Of a stretch of 36,290 bases of DNA, positions 8,200 to 33,621 are shown piece by piece. Source of the DNA: Syntrophobacteraceae bacterium (GTDB taxonomy: Bacteria > Desulfobacterota > Syntrophobacteria > Syntrophobacterales > Syntrophobacteraceae); contig PLSV01000187.1 of the NCBI GenBank assembly GCA_003165235.1, positions 9,075 through 45,364 on the forward strand. Reading direction: 5' to 3'. Within the stretch, counting starts at the first letter, position 1, and each line of letters begins with the position of its first letter. The position numbers were made by a program, and so were the translations under genes. A model generated the notes under the pieces. That model saw nothing but the letters and a program-made list of their open reading frames with translations. It was not told the origin of the DNA and did not search any database.

Positions 8200-8946
8200 T
8201 CACAAGCGGGATGCCAGGCAGGCCGACAATGTAAAAAGGAGAACTTCCGTAATTTCGTTGACCGCGCCGAGCACATCTCCAGTGATGCCGCCGAGAGACC
8301 GCTGCGCCAGCGCCCGGACCAGAAGCGAGCTCAGTGTGGCTGCTCCCAGGAAAGCCGGAGCTAACTTTGGAACAAGGAGCAGGGTTAGAACGACAGCAAA
8401 TGAGGCAGCGGCGAGGACTGTCCCGCCAGTCACATGTTCGATGCTGGATTTGGCAAGACCTCCGGTTCGAGCGCACGAGCTTTTATACGCGCTGACTACG
8501 ATTGCAAAACGGCCCATGGCCGGAACAACCGCCAGAGCAATCCAACTCTTTGCCACAATGAGACTGTAAATGGCGCTCGTTTTCAACAGTATGGCCAAGA
8601 CCAGGGCGAGGGCGCCGAATGCGCCGGTTGCGCTGTCTTTCATAATTTCAAGCCGTCTTTCGGGAGTGTGCGCTCCACCGATCCCGTCGGCCAAGTCCGC
8701 CAGCCCGTCGAGATGAAACCCTCGCGTAACCAGCGTCATAAAGGCGCAGGCCCAGGCGGCCAGGAGAAGTGGAGGCATAAGGGCCTGGAGCAGCAGGACC
8801 ATTAAACACGTAATCAGGCCAACCAGCAGACCCACAACAGGAAAGCATGCATAACATCTTCCCAGATCGCGGGGGGATATTTCCCCGGAAACAGGCAAAC
8901 GGAAGATGGTCAAAAAAGAGAGAGCAATGGTGAATTGGCGCCACAT
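8200..8946 (-). CDS. cobS: Adenosylcobinamide-GDP ribazoletransferase (cobalamin synthase)
   Basis: 248 aa; 'FLTIFRLPV', 'RGFHLDGLADLADGIGGAHTPERRLEIMKDSATGAFGALALVLAILLK', 'GGITGDVLGAVNEITEVLLF'. Confidence 0.95.
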   Translation of the reverse strand: MWRQFTIALSFLTIFRLPVSGEISPRDLGRCYACFPVVGLLVGLITCLMVLLLQALMPPLLLAAWACAFMTLVTRGFHLDGLADLADGIGGAHTPERRLEIMKDSATGAFGALALVLAILLKTSAIYSLIVAKSWIALAVVPAMGRFAIVVSAYKSSCARTGGLAKSSIEHVTGGTVLAAASFAVVLTLLLVPKLAPAFLGAATLSSLLVRALAQRSLGGITGDVLGAVNEITEVLLFTLSACLASRL

Positions 8947-9042
8947 AACGCCTCTGTTTCTGCAGGCAGACGTGCGATGCCGGCAATATGGGTCAATCAG
9001 GCCCGCGCTAAACCCGGCTCAAAAGTATATAAGGCCGGTTGT

Positions 9043-10113
9043 CTACCGGGGTTGTTTGGAAACCCCGGCATCCTCAAAAGTGAGCACTTCCTTAAAGACC
9101 CGCACTGCACCCTCGATCACCCCCATTGCCAGGGCCCCGCCGGCGCCTTCCCCAAGACGCATCCGCAGGTCGAGTATGGGCTCGAGTCCAAGGTGCTCAA
9201 GCATTTTACGATGTCCGGCTTCTTGCGAACAATGCCCGGCAAAGAGGTAATCCACGGCGGCGGGGCAAAGGGAGTGCGCCACCAGGGCCCCGGCCGTCGA
9301 GATGAACCCGTCAATTACGACGGGACGCCTGTGGTAGGCGCCGGCCAGGATGCACCCTGCGATGCCCCCAATTTCGAACCCTCCCACTTTGGCCAGGGCA
9401 TCGAGACCGTCTCCGGGATTCGGACGGTTTATGTCGATAGCCTGCCGTACGATCTCACGCTTCTTTTCCAGGGAATCCTCATCGATTCCTGTCCCGCGGC
9501 CCACCATCTGATTCACGGGGTTTCCCGTCAGGACCACGCCAAGGGCGGCTGAGGGCGTTGTGTTGCCGATTCCCATATCACCGGTCCCAAGGAGCCGGAC
9601 GCCGGCGGAAAATAGTTCCGAGGCTAAGCTGAAGCCGTGCAGGACTGACTGCTCGGCCTGATGGCGACTCATGGCGGGTCCTTTGGCTATGTTGCCGGCG
9701 CCACGGCCCACCTTGCGCACATGGAACTTATTGCGGCCTTCAAAGTGACCAGGGTCAATGTCCGGGATGATTCCCATGTCAACCACCGACACTTCTGCTC
9801 CAATCTGGCGCGCCAAAACATTGATGCCGGCGCCGCCCCTCAAAAAATTCTTCACCATTTCGCCGGTCACTTCCTGTGGAAACGCACTCACCCCTTCGGA
9901 TACAACCCCATGATCTCCAGCCATGACCAGGAAGGCCTTTATGGCGACGTCGGGTTCGAGGGTCTCTAAAATGCCGCAGATGCGTTCCGCAATATCGTGC
10001 AGCCGCCCCAGGGCGCGAGGAGGAATTGCAAGGTGCGCCGTATGCTCACGGGCCCTCTGCACCCATTCGTTCCGGATTGGTTGAATCTGTTTGACGATTT
10101 CCCCAAGATTCAT
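9043..10113 (-). CDS. cobT: Nicotinate-nucleotide--dimethylbenzimidazole phosphoribosyltransferase
   Basis: 356 aa; 'MAGDHGVVSEGVSAFPQEVTGEMVKNFLRGGAGINVLARQIGAEVSVVDMG', 'LGTGDMGIGNTTPSAAL', 'LRMRLGEGAGGALAMGVIEGAVRVFKEVLTFEDAGV'. Confidence 0.97.
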   Translation of the reverse strand: MNLGEIVKQIQPIRNEWVQRAREHTAHLAIPPRALGRLHDIAERICGILETLEPDVAIKAFLVMAGDHGVVSEGVSAFPQEVTGEMVKNFLRGGAGINVLARQIGAEVSVVDMGIIPDIDPGHFEGRNKFHVRKVGRGAGNIAKGPAMSRHQAEQSVLHGFSLASELFSAGVRLLGTGDMGIGNTTPSAALGVVLTGNPVNQMVGRGTGIDEDSLEKKREIVRQAIDINRPNPGDGLDALAKVGGFEIGGIAGCILAGAYHRRPVVIDGFISTAGALVAHSLCPAAVDYLFAGHCSQEAGHRKMLEHLGLEPILDLRMRLGEGAGGALAMGVIEGAVRVFKEVLTFEDAGVSKQPR

Positions 10114-10125
10114 TGCTGCTTTTCC

Positions 10126-10272
10126 TCGTATGACAGACTTGTTAACAACAAACGATCATTTGGCGAGATGCTCTCGCAGGCATCCCTTATCGACGCGTGA
10201 TGCACAGCCCGGAAGGCGACCGCAGCCTGCGTCTATCATCCGCTTTGGGCGTTCGCGGGATGCCTTCTTGCT
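10126..10272. repeat. Direct repeat flanking the bza/cbiR module (distal copy)
   Basis: Shares CGTATGA..ACTTGTTAACAACA, GTGATGCAyAGCCCGGAArGC and GGGCGTTCGCGGGATGCCTTCT, in order, with 17314-17427. It overlaps the 3' end of the cbiR-like CDS. Confidence 0.75.
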
Positions 10273-11105
10273 ATTTCCTGCATTCTGTTGAGCGAAACGG
10301 TAAGCTCATCGAGCGAAAAAACCTCAAGAGAAAGACTACCGTCATATCTTTCAAGGGCCTTGCAGATGACTCCCCATTCCGCTGGCGGAATGTGATCGAG
10401 ACCGGTGTGGTCTTTTCCGTTATCGACTCCATGCAGATGAACCACCGGGCTCATTTTCAGAAACGACGCCATCTGCTCCGCCACATCATGCCCGTATCGG
10501 AGCAGGTGGCCTATATCGAGGCAAAAGGACATATCAAAGGCCTCCGCAAAGGGAGAAATTCGCTGCATAGGATACTCGAGGTTTTCCACAGCCACCCGCC
10601 GTAGTTCGATCCCCTTCATTTGCATCGTCTGGAGCGACTCGCCCACACGGTTCCTCCATGCCCATCTGTCCTGTTCCACCGTTTCATCAGCCTTCCGGCT
10701 GTCCAGGTGCAAAATGAAGGAGGTGGGCGCAAGGGGAAGAGTCCTCTCGTAAAAGGAGAAAGCCGTTTCACAAAATTTCCGCCGCAAAGCGAGGTCCGGG
10801 TCACCAAAAAACAGGTCTGCGGGCAGATGCACATTATAGGTTAGGTCTAAATCCGAAGCAAGACAGGCCATTTCGCGGATCTCGCCCGGCGTGGGAAGAT
10901 TGTCTTCCTGTCCGCTTTCGAAAAGCACGAGTTCCACCTCATCGAAGTACCGGCCCAGGCGCCGGATGTTAGGAAGAATCTCTGCGGGAAAGATATAGGA
11001 GGTCGTAGCGAGTCGGAAAGGAAAACTTCGCTTGAGCGCCTGGAAAGAAATCTCTTCGATTTTTGGACTCAACAAGCGATCAGCAGGGCCGTTTTGCGCC
11101 TTCAT
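10236..11105 (-). CDS. cbiR: CbiR-like cobamide-remodelling phosphodiesterase (AP endonuclease 2 / sugar phosphate isomerase-like TIM barrel)
   Basis: 'FPFRLATTSYIFPAEILPNIRRL...DEVELVLFESGQEDNLPTPGEI', 'VENLEYP', 'CLDIGHLLRYG', 'HLHGVDNGKDHTGLDHIP', 'LSLEVFS'; embedded between bzaE-like and cobT genes. Confidence 0.75.
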   Translation of the reverse strand: MKAQNGPADRLLSPKIEEISFQALKRSFPFRLATTSYIFPAEILPNIRRLGRYFDEVELVLFESGQEDNLPTPGEIREMACLASDLDLTYNVHLPADLFFGDPDLALRRKFCETAFSFYERTLPLAPTSFILHLDSRKADETVEQDRWAWRNRVGESLQTMQMKGIELRRVAVENLEYPMQRISPFAEAFDMSFCLDIGHLLRYGHDVAEQMASFLKMSPVVHLHGVDNGKDHTGLDHIPPAEWGVICKALERYDGSLSLEVFSLDELTVSLNRMQEIARRHPANAQSG

Positions 11106-12660
11106 GGTTCCTATTTGCCTTACTCTGCTTTTTCTGAACGTGTGGCGCCTGTTGGGCGCAAATTCCTCTAAATGTTCTCTCAATTTCATCCATCAGCCTG
11201 TAAAGCAATCCCTGCGTCCAATTTGCATCCGGTGGGCGATTGAGCTTTTTCGCAAAACCGAGCATCCTTTCGAATATCTCCACCAGTTGAGCGTTCGCTG
11301 TCCGATAGGGCTCGTTTTGCGCAGTCTCTTCCACCCAGTAGACAGGTGATGTAGGTTTTCCCATTTCCTTCAGCAGGAAATGGCATATCCTCTTCATGAG
11401 CCCGGCCAGCCATCCCACCCTGAAATCCTGGTAGAGCAGCAGCCCTTCGAACCCGAACAAGCCCTGTGGCAGGAGCATTTTGCGTTGAAGAGCGGTTTCG
11501 TAGCCGGGGGTCCCCTTAAACGCCACATGATCATGGTAGAGAAGGTTGGCCGTCCTCCCCAGGCGGTCGAGAAGCCTGTTGCGCTGAAGAAACTTCAGGT
11601 TCTGGACAATGTCATCGAGTGTGCTGGCGGCGTCGAACATGATAAAGCCGATCTCCGGCTCAAGACCCGCCTCACGTACAGTCGCGATGGCCTGTTCGTT
11701 GCCGGCGATGCTCGTGTGCTTGCCAAGCCGCTTCAAAACATCCGGCCTGCCGCTTTCAATGCCCAGGAGCAGCCTGGTAAGACCGGCTGACGCCAGTTCC
11801 CGCATAAGGCCATACGTAATGTCGTTCGCCCTTGTCTCCATGCCGAAGGTGATTCCGAGGTCCGCCAACTCACGCGCGAGCCTGGCTGCTGTTTCTTTTC
11901 CAGCCTTGCCGGGGCCGACGAAATTAGGGTCTACGAAGTAAAAGTCCTTTTTCCCCAGGCAAACGAGTTCAGAGATCTCAGCGGCGACGTTTTCCGGCGA
12001 GCGTCCCCGCCACATGGTCTTGCCCTGGTCCAGAGTGGGGACCAGACAAAAAGAGCAGTGATTGTAGCATCCCCGGCTCGCCAGGATGCTTACGGTTTGC
12101 TCCGTGTCCAAAGAGGGTCTCAGAGGAAAAGCAAGCCTGTCGGGCGCTTCGATCGGAACTCGAATGCGGGGAAACGATGTTTTCCCACAGGACCTTAGAG
12201 CAACGCCTTCCACCTGGACATCGATCCCGGCTTCGATGCACCGCGTCAGGTCCACCATGGTTTCTTCCGGTTCCCCAACGATCACGTAATCAACTGCGCC
12301 GGAGTAATCCAGGATTTCTTTCCATACAAGACCGGGAAAAAAGCCATAGAGACAAATCGGCGCTTGAAACCTTTGACTACGCAGATCGGAAAGCATCTGA
12401 AAAAGGGACTCGGTTCCCTCCCAGCAATAGACTGCGTGAATCGCCAGAATATCCGGGGATGGATGATCCACCAGGCGCTGCACGGTTTGCGCAGACGTCC
12501 AGCGCGCTGCATCGACAATGTCCGTCTCGAACCCCGCCCGGACCAGGCTTGCCCCGGCATAGCCCGTCATGAGGCATGACCACAGGGGTGTATTGGCAAT
12601 GTCGTTGAAGTGGGCTTCCGAAGCTTCTCGTGGATGTTCAAGCAACAGGATGCGCATCAT
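11080..12660 (-). CDS. bzaE: B12-binding domain radical SAM protein, BzaE-like (DMB biosynthesis)
   Basis: 526 aa; N-terminal cobalamin-binding-like region and radical SAM motif 'SRGCYNHCSFC' (CX3CX2C); gene order after bzaF-C-D. Confidence 0.75.
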   Translation of the reverse strand: MMRILLLEHPREASEAHFNDIANTPLWSCLMTGYAGASLVRAGFETDIVDAARWTSAQTVQRLVDHPSPDILAIHAVYCWEGTESLFQMLSDLRSQRFQAPICLYGFFPGLVWKEILDYSGAVDYVIVGEPEETMVDLTRCIEAGIDVQVEGVALRSCGKTSFPRIRVPIEAPDRLAFPLRPSLDTEQTVSILASRGCYNHCSFCLVPTLDQGKTMWRGRSPENVAAEISELVCLGKKDFYFVDPNFVGPGKAGKETAARLARELADLGITFGMETRANDITYGLMRELASAGLTRLLLGIESGRPDVLKRLGKHTSIAGNEQAIATVREAGLEPEIGFIMFDAASTLDDIVQNLKFLQRNRLLDRLGRTANLLYHDHVAFKGTPGYETALQRKMLLPQGLFGFEGLLLYQDFRVGWLAGLMKRICHFLLKEMGKPTSPVYWVEETAQNEPYRTANAQLVEIFERMLGFAKKLNRPPDANWTQGLLYRLMDEIERTFRGICAQQAPHVQKKQSKANRNHEGAKRPC

Positions 12661-12702
12661 AACTCCAGTGAATAGCGAACAGTAAAACCATTTTTCCAGT
12701 GA

Positions 12703-14106
12703 CTATTCACCGCACTTGAGCCAGTCACTATTCACCGCGCTTAAAGCGCCCCGGCTCATACAAAATGCCCCCAGTTCATGGCGCAGATTGTCCCAGGGCG
12801 GCGGGTTAAAATAAATTGGGTAAAGCAGGTCCAGTCCGGGATCTATGAGGCGGTCCCGTAGAATTTTTTCCGTAAGCGGTGTTCCAGGATATAGTCTGAG
12901 ATTGTTGATGACTACGGCCCCAAGATTTGCTTTCGAAGCATGAAGCGAAAACAGCTTGTCCAGCAACCTGTAGGTCTGTTCGACCGATCCACGGGTCTCT
13001 CCGGGCAGATTCACGAGGAAATGATATACGCTGAGAATCCCGCTTTGGGCAGCCAGCTTTCCGGCATGGAGCACCTGCTCCAGAGTCAGGTTTTTCCCAA
13101 GAAGTCTCAGCGTGTGGTCTGAAGCCCCGTCGGCGGAAAAGTACAGAGTAAGAAGACCCGCTTTGGTGTATAGGTCCAGTTCTTTTTCTGAAAGAGTGTC
13201 TTCACGGAAAAAACCCGTCCAGCCAATCTCTAGTCCGCGCCTCAAGATTTCCTTGCAGATGGCCCTGAGATGGTCCTCCGGCTGGTTCACTACAGCATCG
13301 GTAAAATGGACGTTGCGGATGCCGAAATCGACCCGAAGCGTTTCGAGTTCATCGACTATTCGCTCGGGGGACCGAAGACGCAGGCGGTGGCCCTGGAGCA
13401 CCGGATAGAGGCAGTAGCGGCAGTTGTTCGGGCAGCCGCGCTTGGTTTCGACCCCCATAAAAGCTACATATCGGTTCTGATTTTGATAATAAGCTGGCGC
13501 AAATACGCGCCAGTCAGGCAGCGGCAGGGAGTCGAGGTCCCGGCAATAGACAATTTGCGGCTCGTTTGCCGTGCAAACCCGACCGTCCCGCCGCCGCAGT
13601 CCAATCTCTATGCTCCGCGAGGCGGGTCCCGGTTCACAGGCCCCATCTGTTCTCCACAAAGCGCCGGCAACCGCACCGGGTGTGTCAAGGTTTTGAAGAA
13701 GCAGGGGAAATGCGGCCTCGGCTTCGCCCGACACAGCGACGTCAACTTCGGGGACCTCCTCCATGAGGCGCTGGGCAAAGAGCGTAAAAGCAGATCCACC
13801 GAGCGCTACGGTAGCTTCGGGGGCGTGTTGTCTGATGAGAATTGCAAGGGTTTTCAGATGGGGAACGAAAGAGATAAGATTGCCTGCCAGCGGGTCGAGG
13901 TTCCGAAAGGAAATACCGACTACATCAGGTTTGAACGCATCAAGTGTGCGCACCAGGCCGGGCCACGGAAAAGGATCGAGGTTAAGGTCAAGGCCCTGGA
14001 CCTCGTGCTCACGGCCGATCGCCGCCGCCAGTCTGGCGAGGCCGAGTGGAAAAACCACCTCACCGCAATCATGCGTCGAGACTGCCTGGACCAGCAGGAC
14101 TCGCAT
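12703..14106 (-). CDS. bzaD: B12-binding domain radical SAM protein, BzaD-like (DMB biosynthesis)
   Basis: Start MRVLLVQAVS; 'KRGCPNNCRYCLYP' CX3CX2C motif; follows and overlaps the bzaC-like gene. Confidence 0.75.
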   Translation of the reverse strand: MRVLLVQAVSTHDCGEVVFPLGLARLAAAIGREHEVQGLDLNLDPFPWPGLVRTLDAFKPDVVGISFRNLDPLAGNLISFVPHLKTLAILIRQHAPEATVALGGSAFTLFAQRLMEEVPEVDVAVSGEAEAAFPLLLQNLDTPGAVAGALWRTDGACEPGPASRSIEIGLRRRDGRVCTANEPQIVYCRDLDSLPLPDWRVFAPAYYQNQNRYVAFMGVETKRGCPNNCRYCLYPVLQGHRLRLRSPERIVDELETLRVDFGIRNVHFTDAVVNQPEDHLRAICKEILRRGLEIGWTGFFREDTLSEKELDLYTKAGLLTLYFSADGASDHTLRLLGKNLTLEQVLHAGKLAAQSGILSVYHFLVNLPGETRGSVEQTYRLLDKLFSLHASKANLGAVVINNLRLYPGTPLTEKILRDRLIDPGLDLLYPIYFNPPPWDNLRHELGAFCMSRGALSAVNSDWLKCGE

Positions 14107-15679
14107 GGCTTCCTTTCTTATCGAAAAGCACCAGTCCCACATACTTTACGTAGCCTTGCGGATGTGAAACCGGGCTGAGGGAAAGACCGGCATTGTGGGC
14201 GGTCCGGTAGACGTCCACGCCGCACGCCTCCAGGGACGGACGCGCCTTTTCCGGAAAACGGCAGCGGCCGTCCTCCGGGCACGTGGGACAAACCGGACAC
14301 GGGCCCGCCCCGAAAGCCAGCGCCTCGGCGTACCCCGCCAGGAAAACCGCCCGTTCGAGGGTTAGGAGCTGTTCATGGAACACATGGGACGGCGGAGCGC
14401 CCTGAACCAGCAGAGCATGCCGATATCCGGAGATTAAGGCGCCCATTTCCTTCTCATTCGGAGAGGTGGGCGGACAGCAAAGCGAGCGGCCATAGCGCGC
14501 GCAGCCGAACCGGCATTTCAGCCGCACCCAGTGCTCGATCGCTATCTCGCCGGCCTCTATGATGCGGGCGAAAGAAAACCCTGAGCGCTTTGCCTGAGCA
14601 GCCAGCATCTCGGGACGAGAAAGATGCCGGTTTTTGCTTTGGTGTCCGGGCTTGGCCAAGAACAGTGACGTGTCGCTTTGAAGGTGAAAAAACCGGATGT
14701 CTTTCAGTCCTGCCCCGTTGAGCATGGCGAGCATTTCTTCCAGCCGGTAAACGCGGCCGTTATAGGTGTTTATAAGCATGTGGAGGTCATAGAGCGCTCC
14801 CTTTACCGGGTCGACATCGTGCAGGTCGGTAAGGTAGTCGTGCACGAGGATAGTCCCTCCGGGAGTCATACAGGCCGTAAAATTTCTTAGAATGTCCGTC
14901 GCCTCGAGGGGGCCGTAGGCATGAATGATGTTCGAAAGCAGAATCACGTCGAAATGTTCTCCCCCGATACATGGCGCCAGAACAGTTCCGGCAACGGTTT
15001 GAATCCCTTCCCATGCTTTGGGGTCCGGGTAGAGTTTACGCGCCGCCCAAATGGTGTTGGGAAGCTCGAAGAGCACCGTGCGAAGGTCCGGCCATTGTCT
15101 TCGCAAAGCACGACACCAGGCGCCGGCCCCGCCGCCGACATCGAGGAGTTGGCGGGGCGCCTGCCCAAACATGGCCTTGAGATATTCAAGGGATTCGGCG
15201 CATTTGAGCTGAGCCTGAATGTCCAATGCTCTTACATACGCCAGGGTCCGCTCGCTGTACTGCTGCGAAGATTCATCCACTGAGCGCTCATTGGCGCGGA
15301 CTCCACCGCGTATTCTTGGTCCGAGCCTTCGCCAGTGAGAGCTAAAGTAACGCCGGTAGAGGAGGAAATCCCCCAAGTAGGCGCTGTTTCCCGGCGTCAG
15401 GCGGCGAGCGGCAAGAGGACCGTTGGAAAACACTCCTTCATGCTCGACGATAAGGTCCAGGGCGACGAGGGAACTCAGAAACCGTGACAACCCATCGGCA
15501 TCGTATCCGGTTTGCGCCGCGAGTCGATCAACCGTGGCGGGACAATCAGCCAGGAGTCCAAAAATGTTCAATTCCAAAGACGTGAAAAGAACCTCGGAGT
15601 ACCAGTATGCCGTCGCCAGATCTTCCAGCCGCTGGAAGCCTTCAGAAGCAATATCAGAGTTTTGGTGTGGCAGCTTCAT
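14069..15679 (-). CDS. bzaC: BzaC-like SAM-dependent O-methyltransferase fused to a C-terminal DUF2284-like Cys-rich domain
   Basis: Start MKLPHQNSD; methyltransferase motifs 'LLDVGGGAGAWCRALRRQWPDLRTVLFELP' and 'MTPGGTILVHDYL'; C-terminal 'LKCRFGCARYGRSLCCPPTSPNEKEM...CPVCPTCPEDGRCRFPEKARPSLEACGVDV'. Confidence 0.8.
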   Translation of the reverse strand: MKLPHQNSDIASEGFQRLEDLATAYWYSEVLFTSLELNIFGLLADCPATVDRLAAQTGYDADGLSRFLSSLVALDLIVEHEGVFSNGPLAARRLTPGNSAYLGDFLLYRRYFSSHWRRLGPRIRGGVRANERSVDESSQQYSERTLAYVRALDIQAQLKCAESLEYLKAMFGQAPRQLLDVGGGAGAWCRALRRQWPDLRTVLFELPNTIWAARKLYPDPKAWEGIQTVAGTVLAPCIGGEHFDVILLSNIIHAYGPLEATDILRNFTACMTPGGTILVHDYLTDLHDVDPVKGALYDLHMLINTYNGRVYRLEEMLAMLNGAGLKDIRFFHLQSDTSLFLAKPGHQSKNRHLSRPEMLAAQAKRSGFSFARIIEAGEIAIEHWVRLKCRFGCARYGRSLCCPPTSPNEKEMGALISGYRHALLVQGAPPSHVFHEQLLTLERAVFLAGYAEALAFGAGPCPVCPTCPEDGRCRFPEKARPSLEACGVDVYRTAHNAGLSLSPVSHPQGYVKYVGLVLFDKKGSHASPAGPGSLDA

Positions 15680-15686
15680 ACCCGGC

Positions 15687-16997
15687 CTACATTTTACTTG
15701 TTCCCTTGAGCAGATGGCCGAAAAGGTCATATGAGCCTTTGTTGGCGCAGAAATCCCCACACATGGTGCATACCTTGCTGTCATGGGGGGAACGGCTGTC
15801 GCGGATGGCTTTGGCCTTCTCGGGGAAAAAGCCATGTGTGAACTGCCCGTCCCAATCGAGGTCCCTGCGCGCCTTGCTCATGGCCATGTCCCTCGCCTTC
15901 ATCCGCTCGGGGTACTTGGCGGTATCTCCGATATATGCGCCGAGGCGCGCCACCCGGACACCTTCTATGACATCCTCTTCGTTCGGCAGGGCAAGGTGTT
16001 CCGCCGGCGTGATATAGCAGATCAGGTCCGCTCCGTAGCGAGCGCTGTGCGCCGCTCCAATGGCCGCCGCCACATGGTCGTAGCCGGCCATCACGTCCGT
16101 TGGAATCGGCCCGAGCATGTAGTAGGGGGCGTTGTTGCTCATTCTCTTTTGCAGAATGATGTTTGCTTCGATTTCGTCAATCGGTACGTGTCCCGGACCT
16201 TCCACCATCATTTGACAGCCCATTTTACGGCCGATTTCAGCCAGTTCGCAGTTGATGAGAAGCTCCTGGACCATGGCGCGGTCGAAGGAATCCCAAATCG
16301 CTCCCGATCTCAACCCGTTGCCAAGGGAGAGGACGACGTCGTATTTCTTTAGAATCTCCACCACACGGTCGAACTTGGCGTAAAGAGGGTTTTCCCGTTT
16401 GTTCTTCCGCATCCAGGCCACCATGGAGGTGCCGCCCTTGCTCACCAGTCCTCCATATCGGTATCCCTGCCGCTCGAGTCGTTCGATTGTGTAAAGATTG
16501 ATCCCGCAGTGGATCGCCATAAAGGAGATCCCGTCTGCGCACTGTTTCTCGATGAGATCGAAAAGCAGTTCTTCATCGAGCTTGTTTGGGTCTCCGTAAC
16601 GGCGTGTGGCCTCACAAAAGGCCTGGTAAAGTGGCACGTTTCCTACCGGAAGAGAAACTGCCGCCAGGACCTCTCGGCGAACCTTATCGAGGTCGCCCCC
16701 AACGGAAAGCTCCATGAGCGTGTCGGCCCCGGCAGCCTCAGCAGCCCGGGCTTTTCGAACCTCGGCCTCGATATCCACGATGTCCGTCGATGTGCCGATG
16801 CTGGCATTGACTTTTGAGCGAAGTCCCATTCCGATGCCCACGATTCGGGCGGGACGGTTCGTATTGAGAGGCGCCACAATCTGGCCTTCGGCGATCCTCT
16901 GGAGAACTAATTCCTGCTCCAGTCCTTCCTGGGATGCGACCTCCCGCATAACATCGGTAAGAATTCCTTTTGTTGCATGTTCGACTTGCGTAGCCAT
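15687..16997 (-). CDS. bzaF: ThiC-family radical SAM enzyme, probable 5-hydroxybenzimidazole synthase (BzaF)
   Basis: Start MATQVEHATKG; 'NASIGTSTDIVDIEAEVRKARAAEAAGADTLMELSVGGDL', 'MVEGPGHVPIDEIEANI', 'PTDVMAGYDHVAAAIGAA', C-terminal 'CTMCGDFC'. Preceded by a cobalamin riboswitch, not a TPP riboswitch, and followed by bzaC/D/E-like genes. Confidence 0.85.
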   Translation of the reverse strand: MATQVEHATKGILTDVMREVASQEGLEQELVLQRIAEGQIVAPLNTNRPARIVGIGMGLRSKVNASIGTSTDIVDIEAEVRKARAAEAAGADTLMELSVGGDLDKVRREVLAAVSLPVGNVPLYQAFCEATRRYGDPNKLDEELLFDLIEKQCADGISFMAIHCGINLYTIERLERQGYRYGGLVSKGGTSMVAWMRKNKRENPLYAKFDRVVEILKKYDVVLSLGNGLRSGAIWDSFDRAMVQELLINCELAEIGRKMGCQMMVEGPGHVPIDEIEANIILQKRMSNNAPYYMLGPIPTDVMAGYDHVAAAIGAAHSARYGADLICYITPAEHLALPNEEDVIEGVRVARLGAYIGDTAKYPERMKARDMAMSKARRDLDWDGQFTHGFFPEKAKAIRDSRSPHDSKVCTMCGDFCANKGSYDLFGHLLKGTSKM

Positions 16998-17070
16998 GGT
17001 TTGTCTCCCAGCTTTATCCCCGCATCTCCAGTCATGGATGCCCGGGAACGTTTTGTTTCGCGCAAGGGAC

Positions 17071-17117
17071 AAAAAAAAATCCTCAAGCGCACAATACCTC
17101 GCGCCGTGAGGATTTAC
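17071..17117 (-). terminator. Intrinsic terminator between cobalamin riboswitch 1 and bzaF (likely expression platform)
   Basis: Minus strand AAATCCTCA...TGAGGATTTTTTTTT: 8-9 bp stem followed by a T tract. Confidence 0.75.
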
Positions 17118-17137
17118 CATCTCCCCAGGTGTACTCC

Positions 17138-17310
17138 GAATGTTAGGTCTTCTGACTCTCGGATCGTCCTACAGGCCGCGCCTTCCCGTCCAATTGGCAA
17201 AGGACAGTGGTCTCGTGCGGCGTTCGTCCCCGATTACAGCGGCGGGTCCGTACCGGAATTTCACCGGGTTTCCCTTTTATGGCCTGGAGGGGCCAACACT
17301 CGGATGCCAA
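17138..17310 (-). ncRNA. Cobalamin riboswitch upstream of bzaF
   Basis: Minus strand: AAAAGGGAAACCCGGTGAAATTCCGGTACGGACCCGCCGCTGTAATCGGGGACGAACGCC...CCACTGTCC...GGGAAGGCGCGGCCTGTAGGACGATCCGAGAGTCAGAAGACC. Confidence 0.95.
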
Positions 17311-17510: not shown

Positions 17511-18227
17511 TTAAACCCCTGTATGCACAAGCAGGATGGATAGGTAATCTGCTTCCTGCTTTTGCCGCCGCAGTTTGCGCAGGTCGACCTCGACCTGCTG
17601 GCCCTCGAGACCCGCTCGCGCCACATATACCGCGCGGTCCAGAAAACCGGCCTGCTCGATGAAATCAAGGACCTTGTCGAGTCGCCTGCCGACCTTCATA
17701 AGGATTACCGTCCCTGCCTCGGTAAGCGCCTTTCCGATTACATCGAGGTCATCGGAAACAGGGATAATGACCACCATTTGTTTGCCTTCACCTATGGGAA
17801 ATTCAGCCAAAGCGGCCGCAGCGCTGAAGGCCGTGATTCCTGGAACTGTGACCACCTCGAGTCCGGGAAGTTGTTCGCGCAAAGCTCTGACGAGATATAT
17901 GTAGGTGGAATAAAGCAGTGGATCGCCAAGAGTCAGGAAGCAGGCATCCTCGCCCGTGCTGACCACATCCGAAACACTCCGGGCTGCTTCCGCCCAGCGC
18001 CGCGATAGCTCCCCGCTGTCGGCGCTCATAGGGAAAACCAGTTCGTAAATCCGGGAATCCGCTCTCAGGCGCCGGCCGGCAATGGCAAGAGCGATGCTCC
18101 CGTTCTCGCTCCGCGCCTTTGGAACGAAAACATGCCTGCACCCTTCAAGAACTCTCGCCCCTTTCAAGGTCATCAAGTCAGGGTCGCCGGGTCCAACTCC
18201 TATTCCATAAAGCACTCCGAATTTCAT
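17511..18227 (-). CDS. cbiL: Precorrin-2/cobalt-factor II C20-methyltransferase
   Basis: 238 aa; 'YGIGVGPGDPDLMTLKGARVLEGCRHVFVPKARSENGSIALAIA', 'TLGDPLLYSTYIYL', 'VPGITAFSAAAAL'. Confidence 0.93.
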   Translation of the reverse strand: MKFGVLYGIGVGPGDPDLMTLKGARVLEGCRHVFVPKARSENGSIALAIAGRRLRADSRIYELVFPMSADSGELSRRWAEAARSVSDVVSTGEDACFLTLGDPLLYSTYIYLVRALREQLPGLEVVTVPGITAFSAAAALAEFPIGEGKQMVVIIPVSDDLDVIGKALTEAGTVILMKVGRRLDKVLDFIEQAGFLDRAVYVARAGLEGQQVEVDLRKLRRQKQEADYLSILLVHTGV

Positions 18228-18262
18228 TGCGATTTCTTCCCGGTCGGCAAAAAAATCTTCTT

Positions 18263-19138
18263 TTATATCCGTTCGATACGTTTGACGATAAGCTCTTCGG
18301 GTATCAGTTCCATGAGGCGCTTGCGCGCCTCGCCCACTGTCAGCGGCAGACCGTTGATCGGCACTCCATCATAGCGTTTCATCTCGTGCAGCAGCGTGGA
18401 GATATAGGGCAAACGCAGCCCGGCTCTATCCAGCATATCATAATCGCCAAACACCTTTTCCGCCGGTCCATGGCTTAGGACCCGTCCCCTGTTCAGCACA
18501 TAGATGCGATCTGCAAAAAGAGGCAGCATGTCTACGAGGTGGGTTGCGAGAATTACTGTAATCCCCTGCTGGCGGTTGAGCCTGTTCAGGAGACGCATCA
18601 TCGTTTCTTCCCCAGCAGGGTCCAACCCGGAGGTGGGTTCATCGAGGATCAAAATCGCCGGCTTCATGGCAAGCACCCCGGCCATGGCGACACGCTTTTG
18701 CTCTCCAAAGCTCAAGTGATGGATGGCTCGATGCCGCAAATCACTGGCCGCCACTGATTCAAGCGCCTCGGAAACCCGCCGCTCGACCTCCGGATCGGGT
18801 AGGTCCAGGTTTCTTGGGCCGAAAGCCACATCTTCCTCAACCGTGGCTGCGAAAAGCTGATCGTTTGGATTCTGAAAAACCAGCCCAATTCTCTGGTAGA
18901 GTTCCCTGGGCGGAGTGCCGCAGAGCTCGTGTCCGGCAATGCGAACCTGTCCTTTCTGTGGCTTTAAAAGGCCGACAAGCACCTTTATGAGAGTGGTCTT
19001 CCCTGAGCCGTTCGAGGCAAGCATTGCCACAAACTCGCCCACTCTGACTCGAAAGTCCACTTCCGTAAGCGCCTGCGTTCCTTCCTGATAGGTGAAGCAT
19101 ACACCTGAAGCCTCAACGGCCATAGGAACTTCTTTCAT
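18263..19138 (-). CDS. cbiO: Cobalt ECF transporter ATP-binding protein
   Basis: Walker A 'LASNGSGKTTLIKVL', signature 'LSFGEQKRVAMAGVLAMKPAILILDEPTSGLDP'; start ATG overlaps the cbiQ stop. Confidence 0.92.
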   Translation of the reverse strand: MKEVPMAVEASGVCFTYQEGTQALTEVDFRVRVGEFVAMLASNGSGKTTLIKVLVGLLKPQKGQVRIAGHELCGTPPRELYQRIGLVFQNPNDQLFAATVEEDVAFGPRNLDLPDPEVERRVSEALESVAASDLRHRAIHHLSFGEQKRVAMAGVLAMKPAILILDEPTSGLDPAGEETMMRLLNRLNRQQGITVILATHLVDMLPLFADRIYVLNRGRVLSHGPAEKVFGDYDMLDRAGLRLPYISTLLHEMKRYDGVPINGLPLTVGEARKRLMELIPEELIVKRIERI

Positions 19139-19920
19139 AAGGCGCCCCACTCCAGCCGGATGTATGCAACCACTATCGCTCCCGAGGTCAGGCACAAAAT
19201 CCAGAGATCTTTCGAGGAAATGCGCGGCAGAGCGCCAAAAGGCATGTAGCCTTTGTACCCTCTAAGCTCCATGGCCTCATAAGTGCGGATTCCCTGGTCC
19301 ATTGCAACTTTCATCACTGTTCCCGCCAATACGCCTGTAGACGATAAAGAACGCCTGAGGCTGGAATACCCGAGCCGCACTTTTTGGGCGTCCATGACGT
19401 CGGCAGCCTGATCCATGAGCATAAAAATATAGCGGTACATGAGCATGGCCACCTCCACCCAGCCTTTTGGGACACCGAACCAGCGCAGGGCTTGAAAGAT
19501 CTGATGCGCCCTGGCGGTGGAGCTCAAAAGCAGCAGTACGCTGACTGCTCCCAGAACTCGAGTCCCAAGCAAAGCGCCGTGCAGGGCGCCCTCCAGCATC
19601 ACTGCTATCTTCCACCCAAACAGGGAGGTGCTGAAAAGAAGGGTGGAACCAACGAGAAGCGACTGCAGCAGGATTACAACCAGAACAATTCCCAAAGGGG
19701 CCGCAAGTCTGACCAAAATCAGCCTGGCGGGCATTCGGATCGCCAGCATTCCCCCCAGGCCGGCTGCAAGAACTGCGAGCGGAAACACGGGGCGCTTGGA
19801 TACTATAACGCCGATGATCGCCAGAAGGGCAAGCACGAGCTTTACGCGGGGATCAACACGGGTCAGAATGTTGTCCCGATAGGCGAATATATCCGAGAAA
19901 AGCTCAAAAGACGGCTGCAA
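19135..19920 (-). CDS. cbiQ: Cobalt ECF transporter transmembrane protein
   Basis: 261 aa; 'RVDPRVKLVLALLAIIGVIVSK', 'GVPKGWVEVAMLMYRYIFMLMDQAADVMDAQKVRLGY'; adjacent to cbiO and cbiM. Confidence 0.92.
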   Translation of the reverse strand: MQPSFELFSDIFAYRDNILTRVDPRVKLVLALLAIIGVIVSKRPVFPLAVLAAGLGGMLAIRMPARLILVRLAAPLGIVLVVILLQSLLVGSTLLFSTSLFGWKIAVMLEGALHGALLGTRVLGAVSVLLLLSSTARAHQIFQALRWFGVPKGWVEVAMLMYRYIFMLMDQAADVMDAQKVRLGYSSLRRSLSSTGVLAGTVMKVAMDQGIRTYEAMELRGYKGYMPFGALPRISSKDLWILCLTSGAIVVAYIRLEWGAL

Positions 19921-19924
19921 GGCG

Positions 19925-20194
19925 TTAACCTTTATCCTTTGGAGGAAATAAACTCCGAAAATGATAACCAGCCATGAAACCGCCCGCTGCTCCCGCTAAA
20001 AGAAACAGCAAGAGGGGCAAGTCTCCGCGTTCGATATTTATTAGAGGCGCCTGCGGAGGGCGGTTTGCCTCTATAGCGAATTTCTCTACTACCGACTCAT
20101 CGACGCCGGCCCATTTGCAGTCAGAAATCCGCAGGCCGATATACATGCCCAGGGCCAGCAAAAAGATAATGCCCCCTGCAATAGCGATTTTCAT
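19925..20194 (-). CDS. CbiN/PDGLE-like small membrane component of the cobalt transporter
   Basis: About 89 aa from MKIAIAGGIIFLL with two predicted TM segments, located between cbiM and cbiQ; sequence similarity to canonical CbiN is not obvious by eye. Confidence 0.6.
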   Translation of the reverse strand: MKIAIAGGIIFLLALGMYIGLRISDCKWAGVDESVVEKFAIEANRPPQAPLINIERGDLPLLLFLLAGAAGGFMAGYHFRSLFPPKDKG

Positions 20195-20202
20195 AGAGGC
20201 GC

Positions 20203-20937
20203 CTAAACCGCAAAGATTTTCAGCAATTCGGGTCTGCGTGTCAGTATGAACCTGTAAGCCCCTACACACATGAATCCCTCGACAATTCCCAGCGGGACCT
20301 GGGTAGGCACGAACGCAAGAAGCACGGTCAAAAAAAATTTACCCAGTGGAGCATCACCGTGGAGAGCGGCGGCAAGCTGAAAAGAAGTGACCGTATATGT
20401 GGCCCAATCCGATAGAATGCCTGCAATGAAAGCCGCAATCCACCATCTGCCCGACAGCCGTCTGACCAAAATAAATGAGCCGTAGCCTGCCAAGGCGCCG
20501 GCGACCCCCATTGAGGCAAGATTCGCGCCCAGTGTGGTAAGCCCGCCATGCGCCAGAAACAGGGCCTGCAGCACCAGCGCAACGCTGGCCACGACAACCG
20601 TGAGCAGCGGGCCGATGAAAATGGCGGCAATACCCGTTCCGCAGGGATGAGAACAGGAACCCGCAGCAGGGACAGGAATCGGCATACAGGATATTATGAA
20701 CACAGCCGCCCCTACCAGTCCAACCATAGGCTTGAGGTGTAAATTCCGCCGGCCGCGCAAGTGCAATTCACGCAGCCCTAGAAAGAGAAACGGCGCAGAC
20801 GCCGCAAACCACAAAATTGCCCATTGCGCCGGCAGAATTCCCTCGGAGATGTGCATCGCGAAGGCTGGAACGTCCGGGAGCACGAGCAATGACGTGAATG
20901 CAAGAATTGCTGTGATGGAGCGGCGCCTGGCTTTCAT
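20203..20937 (-). CDS. cbiM: Cobalt ECF transporter S component / permease
   Basis: 'MHISEGILPAQWAILWFAASAPFLFLGL' (the MHI motif after a cleavable leader), 'PVPAAGSCSHPCGTGIAAIFIGP'. Confidence 0.93.
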   Translation of the reverse strand: MKARRRSITAILAFTSLLVLPDVPAFAMHISEGILPAQWAILWFAASAPFLFLGLRELHLRGRRNLHLKPMVGLVGAAVFIISCMPIPVPAAGSCSHPCGTGIAAIFIGPLLTVVVASVALVLQALFLAHGGLTTLGANLASMGVAGALAGYGSFILVRRLSGRWWIAAFIAGILSDWATYTVTSFQLAAALHGDAPLGKFFLTVLLAFVPTQVPLGIVEGFMCVGAYRFILTRRPELLKIFAV

Positions 20938-21049
20938 GGCTGCCTCCGCTGATCCGTAAATTCAGTGACGATTTTGAACAGCGCACTCTCGATCCGGATG
21001 GAATGCAGGCCGGCAGGTCTTGAATCGGAGTCCGATAAATCCGATTTGC

Positions 21050-21604
21050 CTATGTGCGATATTTCGCAGCCTCATCCGGAGGCATGGGAACGAACTCGCA
21101 CTGCCCTGACGGGACAGGGTACATTTCTTTTGGGGGCAGCACCATTTGCCTTACGTCCCTGAAACCCCTCGTCTCCTTGATCCTTGTTTGAATCAGGTCA
21201 ACCAGCAGCTCATCGAATCCGAACCCGCGTCCCATTTGAACACTAACACCGGGAAACCTTTGCGCCTGCTCTTGAAGCATTGCAGGCACGTCGAGAATCA
21301 GATGCAGCCCAGAATGCAAAAAATAGGGAATCACCAGCACCTTCGCCGCTCCAAGGTTGACGCATTTTTCAAAGACCTCCGGAAAGTGGGGTCCAAGCCT
21401 TGACATGAAACACACTTCGACGATCGGATAACCGTACTTGTGTCGAAGACGAGCGGCGACCCTCTCCATATCCTTGCCTGCCTCCGGCACTCGGCTTCCA
21501 TGACCCAGAAGTATTATAGCCTCGTCAAGCGCGGCTGCTTTCTGTCCTTCTTCAAAAGTCTCACCCTTTGCCATGCCACTCTCCCAATCTCCATCCGTAT
21601 TCAC
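21050..21604 (-). CDS. cbiX: Sirohydrochlorin cobaltochelatase, CbiX-type
   Basis: 'IILLGHGSRVPEAGKDMERVAARLRHKYGYPIVEVCFM', 'VLVIPYFLHSGLHLILDVP'. Confidence 0.88.
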   Translation of the reverse strand: MNTDGDWESGMAKGETFEEGQKAAALDEAIILLGHGSRVPEAGKDMERVAARLRHKYGYPIVEVCFMSRLGPHFPEVFEKCVNLGAAKVLVIPYFLHSGLHLILDVPAMLQEQAQRFPGVSVQMGRGFGFDELLVDLIQTRIKETRGFRDVRQMVLPPKEMYPVPSGQCEFVPMPPDEAAKYRT

Positions 21605-21670: not shown

Positions 21671-21737
21671 AACCGTTTTCATCCTCGGCTTATCCAACTC
21701 GGGCTCCAATCCGCGGGAGCACGTGCAGCTATGAAGC

Positions 21738-21903
21738 TATGGGCTGGTCTTCTGGCTCTCGGATCACCCTACTCGCCGAGCCTTCCCACCCCATAGGACA
21801 GTGGCGCGCCGGCGGCTTTCGTCCCCGATCACAGCGGCGGGTCCGCAACGGTTTTGCACCGTTTTCCCTTATGCCCCTTTCCGGGACACCCACAGCTTAT
21901 CGC
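21738..21903 (-). ncRNA. Cobalamin riboswitch upstream of cbiX-cbiM-cbiN-like-cbiQ-cbiO-cbiL
   Basis: Minus strand: ATAAGGGAAAACGGTGCAAAACCGTTGCGGACCCGCCGCTGTGATCGGGGACGAAAGCCGCCGGCGCGCCACTGTCC...GGGAAGGC...GGTGATCCGAGAGCCAGAAGACC. Confidence 0.95.
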
Positions 21904-22124
21904 AATCAATTTTGACCCAGTGCAGTCCGCAATGTCAAGGAAATAACGCACGCCTAGGCATGGCCCCACGCATCCCGTCGCCTTATTGTTTCGAGGCGCC
22001 GCTTGACCGCCCCCGGGATGCTCTGATATCCTTTTGCCACAGGCAAGCCTGCGCAGGCAACGCCAAAAGCGAAGCCCGTCCGTGGGCTCCATAGCCTCGA
22101 TTTGGACTGAAAGGGAAAACGCAT

Positions 22125-27180: not shown

Positions 27181-27573
27181 TTAGGCGCCTGTCAATTTCT
27201 TGTAGGCGAGGTTAATCTGTTTACTCTTTTCTTCCGCGAGTTGTCGAAATTCCGGGGGAGAGCCGGCAAAGTTATCGGGGTGATACTGCTTTATGGCGGC
27301 GAGGTAGGCTTTGCGTATCTGGTCCATTGTTGCGTTTGCGGACAGATTGAGGACTTCATTGTCATTTCCCGCTTGGGTTTGCGGGCAAGGGTTTTCTGAA
27401 GAAGATTCCCCTTTGATGTTAAACCAAAATTCTCTGGATTTCTCCTGCGCCTCCCTGGAGATCTGCACCGTATCCTTGAACGAATTATCCGACAGGCTTC
27501 GCGGTCTTAAACAGGTGTTGGCGCTGGTTGAATAAGCCTGGGCAATTCTGGCGAATTGAACTGGCTCGGGCAT
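27181..27573 (-). CDS. J-domain (DnaJ-like) protein
   Basis: 130 aa; C-terminal 'NATMDQIRKAYLAAIKQYHPDNFAGSPPEFRQLAEEKSKQINLAYKKL' with the HPD motif. Confidence 0.82.
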   Translation of the reverse strand: MPEPVQFARIAQAYSTSANTCLRPRSLSDNSFKDTVQISREAQEKSREFWFNIKGESSSENPCPQTQAGNDNEVLNLSANATMDQIRKAYLAAIKQYHPDNFAGSPPEFRQLAEEKSKQINLAYKKLTGA

Positions 27574-27629
27574 CTTACATCCTGATCCAACAGGTCGTTC
27601 GATAAAAATCCAAAGGCCCTATTACAAAC

Positions 27630-27708
27630 TTCCAGGCAACCCGGCCGTCTCTTGAGAGACCCGTTGGCTTTCCGCCCCCGGCTCACGCCGGGTTTGGCTT
27701 TTTCAGGA
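27630..27708 (-). ncRNA. c-di-GMP-I (GEMM-I) riboswitch-like RNA
   Basis: Minus strand GAAAAAGCCAAACCCGGCGTGAGCCGGGGGCGGAAAGCCAACGGGTCTCTCAAGAGACGGCCGGGTTGCCTGG fits the GEMM-I layout: AAACC, GNRA-capped hairpin, AAAGCC, second hairpin, GGGUUGCC. Confidence 0.82.
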
Positions 27709-32305: not shown

Positions 32306-33520
32306 TTACCGTTGTGCGTGTGGGGGTATCGTGGGCACCGGCAGGTCATAGGCGAAAAGCACACCATTGCCGTATTTCCCACCGTGGGAGGCCAGACCGA
32401 AAAGAGTATTCCCCAGCAGGAGCAGTCGCCCGTCGACCCAGGACCCGTCAGTGCCGTCAAAACGGTGCAACACCGTGTATTGCGATCCGTCGAGTCCGAT
32501 GGAGTAGATCACTCCGAAGGTGTTGTTAGGTCCTCCATTGCCGGTCGTGGCGCCGTAGAGCTTATTTCCCACCAGAATCACGCCTTCGAAGGGACCACTA
32601 TCCTTTTTAGTGAAACTGTGCAAAATCTGGTAATCTGCGCCACCGGGCCGCATGGAGAAGATCACCCCCTCGTTGTAGGCGCCCCCAAAGGTTGTGACCC
32701 CGAAGATCCGGTTATTGGCCAGGATCGGCGTGGCGAAGGAGTTTGTCCCGTCCAAAGCGCCGAAATGGTGCAGGACTTTGAAGTTCGATCCGTTAGTCTC
32801 AATCGAAAACACCGTTCCACGATTATTATCGCCGCCCCAGGAAGTGGCGCCGTAGAGAATGCCGTTCTCCAAGGCCAGGCCGCCTTCGGGCTGCGCCCCA
32901 TCACTCCCGCTGAAGCTGTGCAGGATAGACAAACCGGTTCCGTCCGGTCGAACGGCAAACACCGCTCCATAGTCGGATGCACTACCACCCAGCGACGCTG
33001 TGCCGTACAGTTGTGTCCCGTCGGAAACAAAATGGGCGCAGGGAAGCGCCGCGTAGAGGTCTGCTCCGCTATCTCCGCCGCAACTGAATTCCCAGAACTC
33101 ATTATAATTACTTCCATCGGTTTGGAGCGACAACAGGGCGCCACAGCCGTTGTTATCCAGGTTTACGCAGTTGGTTTGGCTGCATCCCCCTGCCCATGTT
33201 ATTCCGTACAGAGCGCCGCCCTGGTAAAACAGACTCCCATGGGGCCATGCGCCATCACCGGGTTGGCCGGCAAAATGGTGAAGCAGGGTGAAGCCGGAGC
33301 CATCGGAGGCAAGCGAGAAAATCATTCCCATATTGTCGATGGCATCACCGGCAGTCATCCCATAGAGCCTGCCGTCTACCGAGATCAGGTGGCCGTACGG
33401 CGCCGATCCATCGGTCCCGTCGAATTCGTGAATAATCCTGTAGCCTGCCAGAGCCGTTCGGTCAGCGGCAACCAGCAATGCGAACAGGAACAACACCCCT
33501 ACCATCAATCCCCTTCTCAT
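32306..33520 (-). CDS. Secreted GloVer-type tandem-repeat protein
   Basis: About 404 aa; signal peptide MRRGLMVGVLFLFALLVAADRTALA; repeated 'GxVFSxxxDGSxFxxLHxFxGxDGxxPxGxLxxxxxxLYGxTxxGG' units. Confidence 0.85.
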   Translation of the reverse strand: MRRGLMVGVLFLFALLVAADRTALAGYRIIHEFDGTDGSAPYGHLISVDGRLYGMTAGDAIDNMGMIFSLASDGSGFTLLHHFAGQPGDGAWPHGSLFYQGGALYGITWAGGCSQTNCVNLDNNGCGALLSLQTDGSNYNEFWEFSCGGDSGADLYAALPCAHFVSDGTQLYGTASLGGSASDYGAVFAVRPDGTGLSILHSFSGSDGAQPEGGLALENGILYGATSWGGDNNRGTVFSIETNGSNFKVLHHFGALDGTNSFATPILANNRIFGVTTFGGAYNEGVIFSMRPGGADYQILHSFTKKDSGPFEGVILVGNKLYGATTGNGGPNNTFGVIYSIGLDGSQYTVLHRFDGTDGSWVDGRLLLLGNTLFGLASHGGKYGNGVLFAYDLPVPTIPPHAQR

Positions 33521-33621
33521 GGTCTTCCCTTCCCCGGGTAAATTGAGATGGTTGAATTGAAAAGAACAAGAACCGTACGTTTCAAAATCCACATACCGCA
33601 TGAACCGCTCTTCGAATATTC

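Follow-up and report, generated by a model that had tools for sequence, protein, structure and literature searches.

Why does the gene of an enzyme that would cut cobamides stand inside an operon that would finish them? This question is raised by an uncultured, anaerobic Syntrophobacteraceae bacterium (assembly GCA_003165235.1), of which we analyzed one stretch of contig PLSV01000187.1, 36,290 nt long and called the window hereafter. Seven genes were found in the order bzaF-bzaC-bzaD-bzaE-cbiR-cobT-cobS, every one on the minus strand, behind a cobalamin riboswitch and an intrinsic terminator. An earlier note on this DNA had given the same gene set, order and range, and all three were confirmed. 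It had regarded the position of cbiR between bzaE and cobT as the notable part. This was right and understated, as bzaE and cbiR are fused into one gene in six sister species. The run is co-directional as the note had it, but instead of several start/stop overlaps only two were found, bzaC/bzaD (about 38 nt) and bzaE/cbiR (26 nt); the remaining junctions are gaps of about 7–123 nt. The features of the operon are as follows, the higher coordinate of each gene being its start.

17315–17125, minus strand: cobalamin riboswitch aptamer RF00174, leader of the bza-cbiR operon (cmscan, 98.7 bits; gathering score 31.5)
17115–17071, minus strand: intrinsic terminator, a hairpin followed by U9, directly 3' of the aptamer; expression platform of a predicted OFF switch (by folding)
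15687–16997, minus strand: bzaF, putative ThiC-like 5-hydroxybenzimidazole synthase, 436 amino acids (PF01964, BzaF clade)
14069–15679, minus strand: bzaC, O-methyltransferase with a C-terminal Cys-rich DUF2284 domain, 536 amino acids (PF00891, PF10050)
12703–14106, minus strand: bzaD, predicted B12-binding radical S-adenosylmethionine (SAM) methyltransferase, 467 amino acids (best match TIGR04385; cluster motif CPNNCRYC)
11080–12657, minus strand: bzaE, predicted B12-binding radical SAM methyltransferase, 525 amino acids (homology to bzaE genes behind bzaD; motif CYNHCSFC)
10236–11105, minus strand: cbiR, putative cobamide remodelling phosphodiesterase, 289 amino acids (NF041277, tree and metal ligands)
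9043–10113, minus strand: cobT, nicotinate-nucleotide:5,6-dimethylbenzimidazole (DMB) phosphoribosyltransferase (TIGR03160, 422 bits; cut-off 319)
8200–8946, minus strand: cobS, adenosylcobinamide-GDP (AdoCbi-GDP) ribazoletransferase (TIGR00317, 141 bits; cut-off 110)

In six congeners (G019–G024), BzaE and CbiR were encoded by a single uninterrupted frame of 773–826 codons. The two genes are separate in the window, and its BzaE is the counterpart of the N-terminal part of the fusion protein. Pfam analysis detected radical SAM and AP_endonuc_2 domains in all six fusions; in four of them a B12-binding domain also exceeded the reporting threshold. The AlphaFold model of one fusion contained two confident domains (mean predicted local distance difference test score, pLDDT, of 87) and a disordered linker at positions 500–507. 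The modeled fold of the BzaE part of fusion L118 resembled OxsB, CysS and TokK, and the model of a fused homologue matched AP-endonuclease and sugar-epimerase structures across a CbiR-sized stretch. The fusions were recovered in several assemblies, which makes an error shared by all of them unlikely, and the fusion was retained across six species differing by 20–30% in sequence. BzaD and CbiR were found at one place in seven of the ten congeners; because it recurs in this way, the gene arrangement is more than chance. The fusion suggested that the breaking and the rebuilding of B12 are deliberately coupled.

Is the split in the window real? An assembly or sequencing indel within a gene that is really fused would give the same picture. 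The conserved ends of BzaE and CbiR lie 133 nt apart (44 codons plus one base) in frames that differ by one base, so that one base would join them, and the six fused relatives are all close kin. The tree placed the window CbiR just outside the six fused ones (support 100/93 for the six and 100/96 for all seven). It thus branches as the sister of the fused clade, a position at which separate genes would be expected. In addition, the ATG at 11105 with AGGA upstream is a normal coupled start for cbiR, and congener G016 also has separate bzaE and cbiR genes, with a TGATG overlap. Judged by this branching and by the coupled start, a true two-gene state is at least as likely as a frameshift artefact, and we consider the indel explanation doubtful. 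Given this position of the window CbiR in the tree, the simplest history is that the two genes first overlapped without being fused and were joined later.

Operons of bza genes, CbiR and riboswitches for B12 have been described before, whereas the fusion, as a domain architecture, appears to be new. No report of a BzaE–CbiR fusion was found in the literature searched, including the passages covered of the few papers that name bzaE. The main text of the CbiR paper (PMC7733943) does not mention bza genes. No paper treating CbiR and bzaF together was found, the bza papers of 2015 and 2020 being outside the search. The fusion joins anaerobic DMB synthesis with cobamide remodelling and offers a ready-made protein for channelling tests in vitro.

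The linkage might also have arisen without any functional coupling. cbiR often stands beside cobT or cobS, and 80% of cbiR genes adjoin cobamide genes (PMC7733943); a one-base change in the non-conserved linker is enough for fusing or splitting, and both the place of cbiR and the fusion could then be neutral outcomes of gene order. The operon of congener G016 bears on this. Its order is different, bzaA-bzaB-cobS-cobT-bzaC-bzaD-bzaE-cbiR. Both BzaA/BzaB and BzaE of G016 belong to the bzaAB type, the BzaE grouping with that of Desulfoscipio. In contrast, its CbiR is placed as sister to the CbiR of the window genus (99/82), and here too cbiR directly follows bzaE. Within one genus, either two insertions or recombination thus brought cbiR to the position after bzaE in two bza operons of unrelated type, which counts against a neutral accident. 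Proximity to cobT does not explain this place either, as in G016 cobT and cobS precede bzaC, away from cbiR. Together with the retention of the fusion over considerable sequence difference, these observations make neutral linkage unlikely.

We compared the window with 70 other bza loci containing BzaE, 56 of which had at least 900 nt downstream. Linkage of bzaE and cbiR was present in seven of the ten congeners, and CbiR was in none of the 56 other loci, the whole fetched locus being inspected. CbiR was encoded elsewhere in 21 of 50 bza genomes outside the genus, nearly all of them Desulfobacterota or deltaproteobacteria, in frames of at most 363 codons. In a sample of the phylum, 66 of 395 genomes had a CbiR over the cut-off. 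No BzaE–CbiR fusion was detected in these 395 genomes or in the 50 bza genomes outside the genus. Co-occurrence of CbiR and bza genes is therefore common, and among the genomes sampled their physical linkage and fusion were seen in this genus only. A CbiR fused to another partner was considered for a 531-codon frame in G254 and rejected, as no second Pfam domain was found.

The identity of the CbiR protein was then examined. The earlier note had assigned this TIM-barrel protein to CbiR and named a hidden Markov model comparison as the check. The window protein scored 253 bits against the NCBIfam CbiR equivalog NF041277 (cut-off 105), and two fused CbiR domains scored 246 and 260 bits. A tree was built from 52 CbiR proteins and 11 generic members of AP_endonuc_2, the Akkermansia muciniphila sequence not being among them. 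It placed the window protein inside the CbiR clade (100/99), with AP_endonuc_2 paralogues of the same and related genomes outside. Conservation of the superfamily metal ligands H93, H133, E174, D197, H200, H223 and E261 was 98% or higher among the 52 CbiR proteins. A stand-alone model of the window CbiR, built from seven alignment rows, was of moderate confidence (pLDDT 77), and a PDB sequence search with the window CbiR gave no match. The equivalog score and the tree ruled out a TIM barrel of other function; a placement outside the CbiR clade, which the earlier note had named as refuting, was not observed. The gene at 10236–11105 is a CbiR by family membership, and its product would hydrolyze cobamides to adenosylcobinamide phosphate (AdoCbi-P).

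The other half of the fusion belongs to a putative anaerobic DMB pathway. Homologues of BzaF, BzaC, BzaD and BzaE are all present in the window, in this order, and each Bza step was assigned on the basis of what Hazra and colleagues reportedly found in 2015. Whether the ThiC-like protein is a BzaF or a hydroxymethylpyrimidine phosphate (HMP-P) synthase was decided by a phylogeny of 93 rows, in which biochemically characterized BzaF sequences were not represented. The window protein fell into a 22-row clade of single-copy ThiC paralogues adjoining bzaC-bzaD-bzaE, with a Shimodaira–Hasegawa approximate likelihood ratio test (SH-aLRT) support of 100. This clade was separate from the TPP-type (thiamine pyrophosphate) ThiC clade of the family (100) and from the BzaA/BzaB pairs of Acetobacterium, Anaerovirgula and Desulfosporosinus. 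Exactly two ThiC-like genes were found in the window genome: that of the window follows the cobalamin riboswitch, and the other, on a different contig, follows a TPP riboswitch. Their products are 43% identical, and at 19 alignment columns the BzaF group has a fixed residue other than that of the ThiC group. The tree and the separate TPP-controlled ThiC ruled out a misread ThiC. Clustering with HMP-P synthases, the other refuting outcome named in the earlier note, did not occur, and its BzaF assignment stood. By its clade the protein is a BzaF, and it would form 5-hydroxybenzimidazole from 5-aminoimidazole ribotide (AIR). BzaF-like genes were also observed beside cobT in two other family members, G012 and G011 (L242 and L243), where bzaC, bzaD and bzaE are not nearby; these loci are predicted to lead to a 5-hydroxybenzimidazolyl cobamide.

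For BzaC and BzaE, which lack a curated equivalog model, the assignment was made from homology and operon position across about 70 bza loci (Acetobacterium, Anaerovirgula and others). The same two-domain BzaC protein is encoded upstream of bzaD in most bza loci, including those of Firmicutes, so a BzaC–DUF2284 fusion special to the window was ruled out. The DUF2284 domain was seen at the BzaC C-terminus in nearly all bza operons, Nitrospirota included, and was lacking from the BzaC of Acetobacterium dehalogenans (L171), an A. woodii metagenome-assembled genome (MAG; L178) and a Eubacteriaceae MAG (L173). The window BzaD had TIGR04385 as its best family match with 407 bits, under the cut-off of 450, and the BzaD proteins of the six fused-type congeners were likewise below it, at 415–430 bits. 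By homology, position and alignment, the window gene is BzaD-like. In the genus, no BluB scored over the cut-off, indicating that the known aerobic route to DMB is lacking.

The leader of the operon was analyzed for regulation. The riboswitch that the earlier note had placed at its head was recovered by RF00174. Upstream of the first bza gene, RF00174 was found in all seven loci that are complete at that end, namely the window and five congeners (before bzaF) and G016 (before its bzaAB operon). The terminator of the window was located by eye and folding; its loop is at the limit of the automated scan and its stem is bulged, hence the scan missed it. It folded with −19.5 kcal/mol (z −4.5), and none of 200 shuffled sequences was equally stable. 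In the other six complete loci, a hairpin and a T-run also stood 3' of the aptamer, with stems that differ in sequence yet still pair. A GGGAG resembling a ribosome-binding site lies between the terminator and the bzaF ATG at 16997. By aptamer and terminator, the element is a cobalamin riboswitch. Cobalamin binding is predicted to terminate transcription, which would turn off CbiR and DMB synthesis jointly.

We propose that the locus is a riboswitch-gated, oxygen-independent operon for both the finishing and the remodelling of B12, and give this reading of the whole operon a probability of about 0.7. When cobalamin is scarce, the leader terminator would not form, and bzaF, bzaC, bzaD, bzaE, cbiR, cobT and cobS would be expressed, presumably as one transcript. 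BzaF would convert AIR to 5-hydroxybenzimidazole, from which CobT, BzaC, BzaD and BzaE would make the DMB nucleotide; the Bza steps follow the pathway summary in PMC8123684. CbiR would cleave the phosphoribosyl bond of cobamides carrying other lower ligands, releasing AdoCbi-P and an alpha-riboside, the chemistry reported for CbiR (PMC7733943). CobU, encoded elsewhere in the genome, would convert AdoCbi-P to AdoCbi-GDP, and CobS would join this with the DMB nucleotide to give B12. As B12 rises, the operon including CbiR would be switched off, which would limit futile hydrolysis of the product. The coupling of CbiR to BzaE, by translational overlap in the window and by covalent fusion in the six sisters, may serve to fix the proportion between the flux of stripping and that of DMB synthesis. 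The CbiR of A. muciniphila cut every cobamide it was tested on, also cobalamin, with a KM of 194 µM and a kcat of 6.5 per min for adenosylcobalamin, and its discoverers found it unclear how a cell keeps CbiR from destroying the finished product (PMC7733943). The switch together with the overlap or fusion would be a concrete, testable answer: the cutter would be made only when B12 is short and only along with the means of rebuilding.

The genomic context was also analyzed. CobU was found on another contig of the window genome (G000:C367), so CobU, CobT and CobS are all present and the gene set of the remodelling route is complete. CbiD is encoded outside the window, and upstream of bzaF two further features were found:

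17511–21604, minus strand: upstream cobalt/corrin cluster with a CbiX-like chelatase gene, cbiM, cbiQ, cbiO and cbiL, a context of de novo corrin synthesis
21725–21908, minus strand: second cobalamin riboswitch, upstream of cbiX-cbiM-cbiQ-cbiO-cbiL (RF00174, 103.6 bits)

cbiL is also upstream of bzaF in four fused congeners. The cbiX-cbiM-cbiQ-cbiO-cbiL cluster, CobU and CbiD indicated that de novo corrin synthesis is likely.

Several points weigh against the proposed finishing and remodelling operon. As CbiD and CbiL make de novo corrin synthesis probable, the substrate may be other than scavenged cobamides. Cobalamin itself is among the cobamides cut by A. muciniphila CbiR, and hydrolysis of the product would be limited solely by the switch or the fusion. 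The BzaD score is below the curated cut-off. The window bin also carries CbiZ, another remodelling enzyme. This bin is 7.07 Mb with 8.9% contamination, compared with 3.7–5.5 Mb for congeners, and may be mixed; statements about the whole genome are thus less safe than those about the contig. CbiR and CbiZ were otherwise mutually exclusive in the genus and family (G000 and G001–G025), the contaminated window bin excepted. In favour of the proposal, none of the 7 congeners with CbiR carried CbiZ, compared with 11 out of the 18 remaining members of the family (p = 0.008, kinship ignored). This exclusion suggested that one remodelling enzyme was replaced by the other.

The host's apparent ability to make corrin rings de novo would also fit a proofreading of its own cobamides, which partly overlaps with the proposed remodelling. 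CobT and CobS can attach 5-hydroxy-, 5-methoxy- and 5-methoxy-6-methylbenzimidazole to cobinamide; CbiR would cut such immature cobamides, and BzaC, BzaD and BzaE would methylate the riboside onward, so that the fusion puts the cutter where the precursor is finished. The fusion partner is indeed BzaE, the last DMB step, rather than CobT or CobS, and an alpha-riboside is what CbiR releases (PMC7733943). A 2020 paper by Mathur, cited in PMC8123684, has by its title CobT and BzaC acting one after the other on the activated ligand. Against proofreading, CbiR also cuts finished cobalamin, action of BzaE on a riboside is a supposition, and most bza genomes do without a linked CbiR. We consider it possible but tentative. 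More specifically, the BzaE–CbiR protein could act as a bifunctional editor, in which CbiR opens an immature or foreign cobamide, BzaE methylates the freed benzimidazole riboside or ribotide, and CobS restores the cobamide. This is improbable in our view; if true, lower ligands would be upgraded to DMB, not discarded and replaced.

BzaE is itself a cobamide-binding radical SAM enzyme and the direct fusion partner, so the CbiR domain might instead rid the B12-binding domain of its partner of unsuitable cobamides, and only B12 would then support DMB synthesis. BzaD uses a cobamide as well, yet it is unfused, and the variable, disordered linker does not indicate a fixed hand-over geometry. Such quality control of the BzaE cofactor is highly improbable.

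We return to the finishing and remodelling operon and compare it with known systems. The bza operons of Eubacterium limosum, Acetobacterium woodii, Moorella thermoacetica and Geobacter sulfurreducens have the same families, the bzaC-bzaD-bzaE order, cobT nearby and predicted DMB as the product. Compared with these operons of bzaABCDE or bzaF plus cobT, in the window BzaF replaces BzaAB, cbiR follows bzaE, and cobT and cobS come last; in its sister species a single gene encodes both BzaE and CbiR. A. muciniphila CbiR (Amuc_1679) is of the same equivalog family and AP-endonuclease-2 fold as the window CbiR, and both are encoded beside cobT/cobS-type genes. A. muciniphila remodels to pseudocobalamin and the listed genes of its locus make no lower ligand, whereas the window CbiR is in a riboswitch operon predicted to make DMB and, unlike A. 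muciniphila CbiR, can in this genus be covalently joined to BzaE. Remodelling by CbiZ in Rhodobacter sphaeroides also removes the nucleotide loop and lets another lower ligand be fitted, but CbiZ is an amidohydrolase acting on a different bond from CbiR.

Two further features were observed in the window. A c-di-GMP-I-GGC riboswitch (66.8 bits) is located at 27181–27707, just upstream of a same-strand gene for a small DnaJ-domain protein. The protein encoded at 32306–33601 contains tandem repeats of the GloVer choice-of-anchor type (TIGR03803, 200 bits).

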